This document shows positions 44,030 through 46,022 of a stretch of 64,000 nt of DNA, one piece after another. The DNA is taken from contig SLKC01000024.1 in assembly GCA_007134775.1 (NCBI GenBank), positions 1 through 64,000 of the forward strand, given 5' to 3'. Positions within the stretch are counted from its first letter, which is position 1. Each line of letters opens with the position of its first letter. The stretch is from Ectothiorhodospiraceae bacterium. GTDB taxonomy: Bacteria > Pseudomonadota > Gammaproteobacteria > XJ16 > Halofilaceae. The notes beneath the pieces are model-generated. The model was not told the origin of the DNA. It did no database searches and worked only from the letters and a program-made list of their open reading frames with translations. The translations under genes and the position numbers were made by a program.

Positions 44030-44896
44030 TCAACCCGCCGGCGTGACTTCCTTGCGCAGGCGCCGGATGGCGTTGTTCTCGAGCTGGCGGATCCGTTCCG
44101 CGGAGACGCCGTAGCGGTCGGCAAGCTCCTGCAGCGTCAGGCGCGATTCGCTCAACCAGCGCGCCTGCAGGATATCCCGGCTGCGCTCGTCGAGTGTATG
44201 CAGCGCTCGCGCGAGACCTTCATGCTCATACCCGGCCGTGTCGGCTTCCTCGATCCAGGTCGCGGGATCGGAGTCAGGGGCGCTCAGCCAACCCGCTGGG
44301 GCGAAGGGCTCTTCGTCGTCGCCGTCGACCGGGGCGTCAAAGGAGGTGTCCTGCCCGGCGAGGCGGCCCTCCATCTCCACGACCGTTTCCGGCTTGACGC
44401 CGAGGTCGTTGGCCACGGCCTCGACTTCCTCGCGGTTGAACCAACCGAGGCGGTTCTTCTGCGAGCGCAGTTTGAAGAAGAGCTTACGCTGCGCCTTCGT
44501 CGACGCGACCTTCACCATGCGCCAGTTGCGGATGACATATTCATGGATCTCCGCCCGGATCCAGTGGACCGCAAAGGAGATCAGCCGCACCCCGACATCG
44601 GGGTCGAAGCGTTTGACCGCCTTCATCAGGCCGATATTGCCCTCCTGGATCAGGTCCGCCATGGGTAGCCCGTAGCCGGTATAGCCGCGCGCGATGTGGA
44701 CCACGAAGCGCAGTTGCGAGAGCACGAGTTCTTGCGCGGCTTGCACGTCCTGCTCGTCGCGCAGACGACGCCCGAGCTCCTGCTCCTCATCGAAGTCGAG
44801 GACCGGCAGGTTGTTGACGGCCTGGATATAGCCGTTGAGATCACCCGTGGGTGCAGGCAGATTCTGCTGGTGGGTCGCGATCAGCGCTGTGCTCAT
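44030..44896 (-). CDS. rpoH: RNA polymerase heat-shock sigma factor sigma-32
   Basis: Directs transcription of heat-shock genes. The 288-residue protein has region 2 ([60 protein letters not shown]) and the RpoH box around [18 protein letters not shown]. Region 4 reads [33 protein letters not shown] 44896 has GGGAGGT eight bases upstream. It follows ftsX, as in E. coli (ftsY-ftsE-ftsX-rpoH). Its upstream region carries a CIRCE element over the probable promoter, so repression by HrcA is likely. E. coli instead relies on mRNA structure and protein stability. Confidence 0.96.
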
Positions 44897-44924
44897 CGTT
44901 TCTTACCTCCCGAAATTCCCCATA

Positions 44925-44954
44925 ATCTTAGCACTCTCGCTAAGAGACTGCTAA
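44925..44954 (-). promoter_or_regulatory. candidate rpoH promoter overlapping CIRCE
   Basis: Leftward, TTAGCA (44954-44949) and TAAGAT (44930-44925) stand 18 bases apart and match four of six consensus bases each. The start would lie near 44918, giving a leader of about 22 bases with GGGAGGT at 44911-44905. Confidence 0.45.
44928..44954. promoter_or_regulatory. CIRCE operator (HrcA binding site) upstream of rpoH
   Basis: On the + strand TTAGCACTC (44928-44936), nine bases (44937-44945), then GACTGCTAA (44946-44954). The CIRCE consensus is TTAGCACTC-N9-GAGTGCTAA, so 17 of 18 arm bases match, with the correct spacer; the single change is C for G at 44948. It lies 32-58 bases before the rpoH start codon and overlaps both candidate promoter boxes. 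Confidence 0.85.
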
Positions 44955-45023
44955 ACCCATCATGAGTTCCGTGGATGACGATCCATCCATGCGCGTAGTC
45001 AGCGCATCGCGGGTGGGTCGCGC

Positions 45024-46022
45024 TCAGGCGGGCTCGATGGCGCGCAGGTGACGGCCTACCGCCAGCCGGGCCCCGATCAGGCCTAGCAGGCCGCCACCGA
45101 GCAGCAGGAAGGCGGCCTCGCGCGCGCCCAGGCCCTGCAGCCGAAACCCGCTGCCATACGCTTCGGCGAGTTCGGCCGTGGGGGTCGCGAGTAGGGCGGT
45201 GAGTAGGATCAGCAGCCCGCAGGCGCCGATGCCACCGGCGAGCCCATACCAGAACCCTCCGTAGAGAAAGGGACGCTGGATGAAGGCATCCGTGCCACCG
45301 ATGAGCTTGATGACCTCAATCTCGCTGCGCCGATTGAGGACGTCGAGGCGGATCGTGTTGCCTACGATCAGGAGCACACCCGCCCCCAGTAGGGCCGCAA
45401 GCAGGAGAATGCCCCGCTCGATCAGGGCCAGCAGCGCATGGAGGCGCTGGACCCATTCCAGGTCGACCTGCGCGCGATCGACGCCCGTCACACCCGCGAG
45501 TCGGTCGGCGAGATCGCCGAGTTCGGTCGCCCCCGCGCCGGTCGCGGTGGGTTCCACGACGACCACGTACGGCAAGGGGTTGTCCGTCAGCTCGGCCAGC
45601 GCTGCGTCGAAGCCGGCCATCTCACGGAACTCGGCCAGCGCCTCATCGTCGCTGATGGTGCGCACGAGCGTCGCGCCATCGATACCCGCAAGCGCCTGTT
45701 CCACTTCCGCCACCGCTTGTTCGTTGAGATCCGCTTCGAGATAGACCGAGATCGCGGCGCCGCTGTCCCAGCCCTCGCTCGCCGCCTGCGTGTTGGTCAG
45801 CAGGATCCATAGGGCCCCGGGCAGCGCGAGCGCAATCGCGATCACGAGCGCCGTCATCAGCGTCGAGCCCGGATTGCGCCACAGCCGGCCCAGACTCGCG
45901 AGTGCCGCCCGGGGATGCTCCTCCAACCAGCCGAGCAATGGTGCGGCCCACCCGCGGCCACGGCCAGGGCCGCGCCGGGGCTCGCCGCGCTGCGATCGGG
46001 TCCGCTTGCGCCTGACGATCAT
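45024..46022 (-). CDS. ftsX: cell division protein FtsX
   Basis: Membrane partner of FtsE; the complex activates peptidoglycan hydrolysis at the septum. The 332-residue protein has a basic cytoplasmic N-terminus (about 1-45), one helix (around 57-77, ALVIAIALALPGALWILLT), a periplasmic domain (about 80-190) and three C-terminal helices. RRSEIEVIKLIGGTDAFIQRPF is the family coupling segment. The start overlaps the ftsE stop by four bases. Confidence 0.94.
   Translation of the reverse strand: MIVRRKRTRSQRGEPRRGPGRGRGWAAPLLGWLEEHPRAALASLGRLWRNPGSTLMTALVIAIALALPGALWILLTNTQAASEGWDSGAAISVYLEADLNEQAVAEVEQALAGIDGATLVRTISDDEALAEFREMAGFDAALAELTDNPLPYVVVVEPTATGAGATELGDLADRLAGVTGVDRAQVDLEWVQRLHALLALIERGILLLAALLGAGVLLIVGNTIRLDVLNRRSEIEVIKLIGGTDAFIQRPFLYGGFWYGLAGGIGACGLLILLTALLATPTAELAEAYGSGFRLQGLGAREAAFLLLGGGLLGLIGARLAVGRHLRAIEPA

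Follow-up and report, generated by a model that had tools for sequence, protein, structure and literature searches.

A predicted HrcA operator merged with the promoters of the heat-shock sigma factor gene rpoH in an Ectothiorhodospiraceae bacterium and HrcA-bearing members of its class

Introduction

Classical CIRCE elements, the operators of the repressor HrcA, are found at the groESL and dnaK operons of Bacillus and of alpha-, gamma- and epsilonproteobacteria. In Escherichia coli, the level of the heat-shock sigma factor sigma-32 is set mainly by mRNA structure and protein turnover. One of the promoters of its gene in this organism, rpoH P3, is RpoE-dependent (PMC8103513), and the RpoE −35 motif is given as GGAACTT (PMC4890791, PMC8103513).

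The closest described system is that of the deltaproteobacterium Geobacter sulfurreducens. According to Rodionov et al. (2004, PMC545781), it has a predicted HrcA site, TTAGCACTC-N9-GAGTGCTAA, at −51 from rpoH, along with sites at hrcA-grpE-dnaK-dnaJ and groESL; G. metallireducens has no listed rpoH site in that study, and its passages on the G. sulfurreducens element describe no RpoE or sigma-70 promoter within it. In the open-access literature, we found the CIRCE–rpoH link for G. sulfurreducens only and none for Gammaproteobacteria, nor did we find there a description of an operator fused with a double promoter; regulon compilations may list the link. The abstract of Leyn et al. (2016) concerns metabolic regulators. 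Here, we describe the rpoH promoter found in a window of 64,000 nucleotides (the whole stretch of DNA analysed) from an Ectothiorhodospiraceae bacterium, and compare it with rpoH promoters across the class, which is taken in a broad sense that includes betaproteobacteria, as judged from the names of pattern matches.

Results

The rpoH gene lies at 44030–44896 on the minus strand of the window, and its product is recognised as the heat-shock sigma factor sigma-32 by TIGR02392 (395.6 bits, cut-off 323.1) and NF005143 (414 bits). It is preceded on the same strand by ftsX (45024–46022; Pfam FtsX_ECD and FtsX), which likewise precedes rpoH in the E. coli order ftsE-ftsX-rpoH. Upstream of rpoH, at 44928–44954 on the minus strand, we predict a CIRCE operator, a 27-bp palindrome reading TTAGCAGTC-TCTTAGCGA-GAGTGCTAA towards the gene. 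It matches the consensus TTAGCACTC-N9-GAGTGCTAA at 17 of 18 arm bases, the one mismatch being a G in place of C at element position 7, and its spacer (44937–44945) is exactly 9 bases long. With up to three mismatches allowed, this is the sole CIRCE match in the window, where shuffled sequences gave a mean of 0.01 matches by chance. It has the arms and the 9-base spacer of a classical CIRCE, and a cognate HrcA likewise. An earlier note on this DNA had already counted 17 of 18 arm bases and the exact spacer, and the CIRCE search at up to three mismatches gave the same result. Of the extent proposed there, 44925–44954, the end at 44954 holds, but the palindrome begins at 44928, 44925 being the end of the hexamer TAAGAT discussed below; the distance to the rpoH ATG (44896–44894), given as 32 bases, is 31 on recounting.

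The predicted operator coincides with boxes of the sigma-70 type. The first six bases of its left arm, TTAGCA (44949–44954, minus strand), correspond to a −35 box, and after an 18-base spacing there follows a −10 box, TAAGAT (44925–44930, minus strand), whose first three bases end the right arm and which, with TGC before it, forms an extended −10, TGCTAAGAT. A generic promoter scan gave no match at the rpoH promoter at its thresholds, because TTAGCA and TAAGAT score too low; the boxes emerged from aligned relatives. When 122 rpoH elements of the class were aligned on CIRCE, conserved positions appeared outside it: the right arm is followed by A or T, then A, then T, and these bases together with the TAA of the arm make a −10 box preceded by TGC, with the variants TAAAAT, TAATAT, TAAACT and TAAGAT. 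In most relatives, the left arm starts with TTAGCA or TTGGCA, and a TAnnnT hexamer lies 18 bases further on. The TA...T box in register with the right arm is present at 109 of the 122 rpoH sites versus 1 of 23 groES sites (a comparison set assigned by sequence motif among the matches listed), and T at hexamer position six at 111 versus 1. At these 23 groES sites of the class, CIRCE follows a TAT-TAT-like −10 and has no promoter boxes of its own, whereas at rpoH the arms themselves are the boxes. A likely rpoH start near 44918, as predicted in the earlier note, fits the −10 box at 44930–44925.

The earlier note had missed an RpoE (sigma-E) type promoter that occupies the same bases in most relatives. 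In the window, the RpoE type −35, GGAACTC (44964–44970, minus strand), has six of the seven bases of GGAACTT, and the −10, GTCTCT (44943–44948, minus strand), takes three bases from the end of the left arm and three from the beginning of the spacer; this −10 is without the usual final A, and its distance from the −35 equals that in E. coli P3. Both congeners of the organism carry GGAACTT as the −35, with GTCCCA and GTCTCA as the −10. In most relatives, a GGAACTT-like −35 starts 16 bases 5′ of the first CIRCE base. GGAACT is matched at five or more of its six bases in 82/122 rpoH sites versus 0/23 groES sites, and the offset of the RpoE promoter is −16 or −17 in 87 of the 97 CIRCE sites where such a promoter was scored. 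Across the class alignment, the −10 is again built from the last left-arm and first spacer bases, (C/G)TCTnA, with A at spacer position 3 (element position 12) at 105/122 rpoH sites versus 1/23 groES sites. The genome has rpoE (TIGR02939, 315.3 bits, cut-off 236.15). E. coli P3, GAACTT-N15-GTCTGA, also situated after ftsX, corresponds in −35, spacing and −10 to the RpoE promoter seen across the class, of which the −10 in the window lacks the final A. E. coli has no palindrome at this place, and hrcA is absent from it, the control genomes having been searched for the gene.

In proposing HrcA control of rpoH, the earlier note had suggested looking for hrcA and for further CIRCE sites in the genome. 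A single HrcA is encoded in the genome (3.06 Mb, 99.6% complete); it scores 320 bits against TIGR00331 (cut-off 197.2) and has both the DNA-binding and the C-terminal Pfam domain. Genome-wide, there are exactly three CIRCE sites at up to three mismatches, each with a single mismatch: besides that of rpoH, two more precede groES (groESL) and hrcA-grpE-dnaK, all of them heat-shock genes. Therefore, the regulon of HrcA is likely composed of groESL, hrcA-grpE-dnaK and rpoH, the same three-operon regulon as that predicted for G. sulfurreducens (PMC545781).

Two side observations concern the other sites. Directly before the groESL CIRCE (L001) stands CTTGAAA, a sigma-32-like −35, so that groESL is probably under the control of both HrcA and sigma-32. 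The CIRCE before hrcA (L003, 1501–1527) sits between hrcA and a divergent ispG-like gene, and might affect both.

For the distribution of the element, we used an even sample of 232 genomes of the class, of which 215 yielded an RpoH and 172 an hrcA; the 500 bases upstream of rpoH were examined in the 149 whose RpoH matched best. CIRCE with up to three mismatches was present in 117 of 125 genomes with hrcA versus 4 of 23 without it, and it was perfect in 61 of the hrcA-bearing ones. None of the examined genomes scored four or five mismatches (shuffled upstream regions gave 5–10), so the call of presence or absence is clear-cut. Fisher's test on the association gave 4e-14, which is not a true probability, because the genomes are related and such values overstate independence. 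In two families (f11 and f86), a paired contrast was found, hrcA and the site occurring together in one genome and both being absent from the other; family f112 is discordant, its hrcA-lacking genome retaining the site.

Exceptions occur on both sides. Seven hrcA-bearing genomes have no recognisable CIRCE within the 500 bases upstream of rpoH, and in G032, which has two rpoH genes (L177 on contig C325 and L123 on contig C289), only one copy has it, which offers a natural comparison inside a single genome. Conversely, four genomes in which hrcA was not found keep an rpoH CIRCE with one to three mismatches (L136 in G113, L035 in G083, L105 in G067 and L108 in G182); in these, hrcA may have been missed, unassembled or lost recently. 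An additional perfect CIRCE was observed elsewhere in the genome of G083.

A DNA pattern tying CIRCE to an rpoH motif recovers only 13 of the rpoH loci in the set, so its counts are lower bounds. Among the matches listed, all placeable records are beta- or gammaproteobacterial, Nitrosomonas europaea included, and some are titled only Proteobacteria. In a sample of the phylum, the pattern, tuned to the spacing of this class, matched at least eight genomes, all of this class, and none elsewhere. Overall, the CIRCE–rpoH link is, by sequence, not peculiar to this organism but a general trait of those class members that carry HrcA, a point that the earlier note had missed.

At close range, the order is sampled by three genomes of one genus, namely that of the window and its two congeners, whose RpoH proteins are 76% identical to that of the window. 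In both congeners, all 18 arm bases are identical to those of the window, G at position 7 included. Around the arms, only 4 of 9 spacer bases, 15–21 of 40 upstream bases and 8–14 of 25 downstream bases are identical. The inverted repeat, the loss of which in relatives had been named as an argument against HrcA control, is thus kept, being the only strongly conserved block in the aligned upstream regions. Such a pattern marks the arms of the predicted rpoH operator as a footprint of selection. In addition, a sigma-32-like TTGAAA-N13-CCCC, with no equivalent in the window, lies roughly 140 bases 5′ of rpoH in both congeners (L006 and L007); from this site, rpoH may activate itself in these organisms.

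Discussion

Taken together, the comparative data support the reading of a sigma-32 gene placed under HrcA, and we consider it very probable that we are dealing with a true operator of HrcA, merged with the rpoH promoters, through which HrcA represses both of them until heat releases it. At ordinary temperature, HrcA would sit on the 27-bp palindrome and cover the sigma-70 −35, the extended −10 and the RpoE −10, so that rpoH would be little transcribed from either the housekeeping or the envelope-stress promoter. The outer arm bases of the operator serve as the sigma-70 boxes, and the RpoE −10 falls on its left arm and spacer; HrcA would therefore shut the two promoters together. Heat would inactivate HrcA, or divert the GroESL that it needs, and rpoH, groESL and hrcA-grpE-dnaK would then be derepressed at once. 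New sigma-32 would raise chaperone expression further, and recovered GroESL would restore HrcA and close the loop. Chaperone genes being targets of sigma-32 as well, the action of HrcA on groESL would be twofold, one direct and one via rpoH. In this scheme, the sequence, the hrcA and rpoE genes, the three-operon regulon, the conservation, the tie to hrcA and the constant register of the promoter boxes are observed; we infer HrcA binding, repression, the transcription starts, the promoter used and release by heat, the last from HrcA elsewhere: in other bacteria, it loses activity upon heat shock.

One objection comes from position 7, where the RpoE −10 also begins. G at this position suits the latter (GTC) better; it is rare in sites of genomes with hrcA (5/118, a count that includes G002, whose hrcA status was not searched) and commoner in promoters of genomes without it (4/12). 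In a post hoc analysis with small numbers, there is thus a hint that position 7 is under differing demands from HrcA and RpoE, which would offer a reason for the G of the window. Position 21, the mirror of position 7, is the most frequently changed right-arm base in relatives. The G could weaken HrcA binding, and one might suppose that CIRCE, real in this lineage, has here been weakened to the point where HrcA exerts no appreciable control. We find this unlikely. All 18 arm bases are kept in three species of the genus while their surroundings have diverged, which is not expected of a dead site, and the groES CIRCE of two other hrcA-bearing genomes (L175 and L176) have the same G.

It is also tempting to ask whether only a promoter is conserved, the sigma-70 and RpoE boxes resembling CIRCE by accident and HrcA having no role at rpoH. 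Bases of the element do belong to boxes of both promoter types, and in genomes without hrcA promoter parts persist while the palindrome does not: in several of these, the RpoE promoter remains with decayed parts of CIRCE. In one example, TGAACTT-N9-TTGGCACTC-TTATTTGTT-GATGCTAAA, the left arm persists as the RpoE −10 in a decayed palindrome; in another, TTGGCACTC is followed by AGTGCTAA at the wrong spacing. However, a promoter has no need of inner arm bases in mirror symmetry, nor of an exact 9-base gap, and these inner bases are near-invariant in genomes with hrcA and decayed in those without it, which makes a chance resemblance quite improbable.

Inverted repeats can fold, and E. coli rpoH is under the control of mRNA structure, so one could imagine the repeat forming a hairpin in the leader RNA of rpoH, as a thermometer or attenuator. 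We rejected this candidate as very improbable on two grounds. The predicted starts lie inside or 3′ of the element, so both arms are never present in one such transcript; and across relatives a change in one arm has no counterpart in the other in 81 cells, against 4 with matching changes in both, so it is the bases themselves that are conserved, not their pairing. Control of rpoH by a different repressor that recognises a CIRCE-like site, a thought prompted by the four genomes that retain the site without a detected hrcA, is hardly credible, as the rpoH arms match the groESL and hrcA arms of the same genomes and the presence of the site tracks hrcA.

Returning to the operator merged with both promoters, we might ask how old such an arrangement is. 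That HrcA over rpoH, with the operator, the sigma-70 boxes and the RpoE promoter on shared bases, represents the ancestral heat-shock control of the beta/gamma class is a proposal that could equally prove right or wrong. The heat-shock sigma factor of E. coli, devoid of a repressor, is probably an exception in this class.

Conclusions

E. coli serves as the textbook model of heat-shock control in this class. If HrcA gates rpoH in most of the class, two systems regarded as parallel would become one hierarchy with a feed-forward branch, in which HrcA would repress groESL both directly and through the activator of groESL. If the ancestral reading is true, E. coli P3 would be what remained after the loss of hrcA, and single bases, position 7 for instance, would be contested between repressor and sigma factor over evolutionary time. 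HrcA control of rpoH would also provide a plain example of a 27-bp stretch that serves a repressor as well as two sigma factors, and the fate of such a site after the loss of its repressor becomes directly testable.
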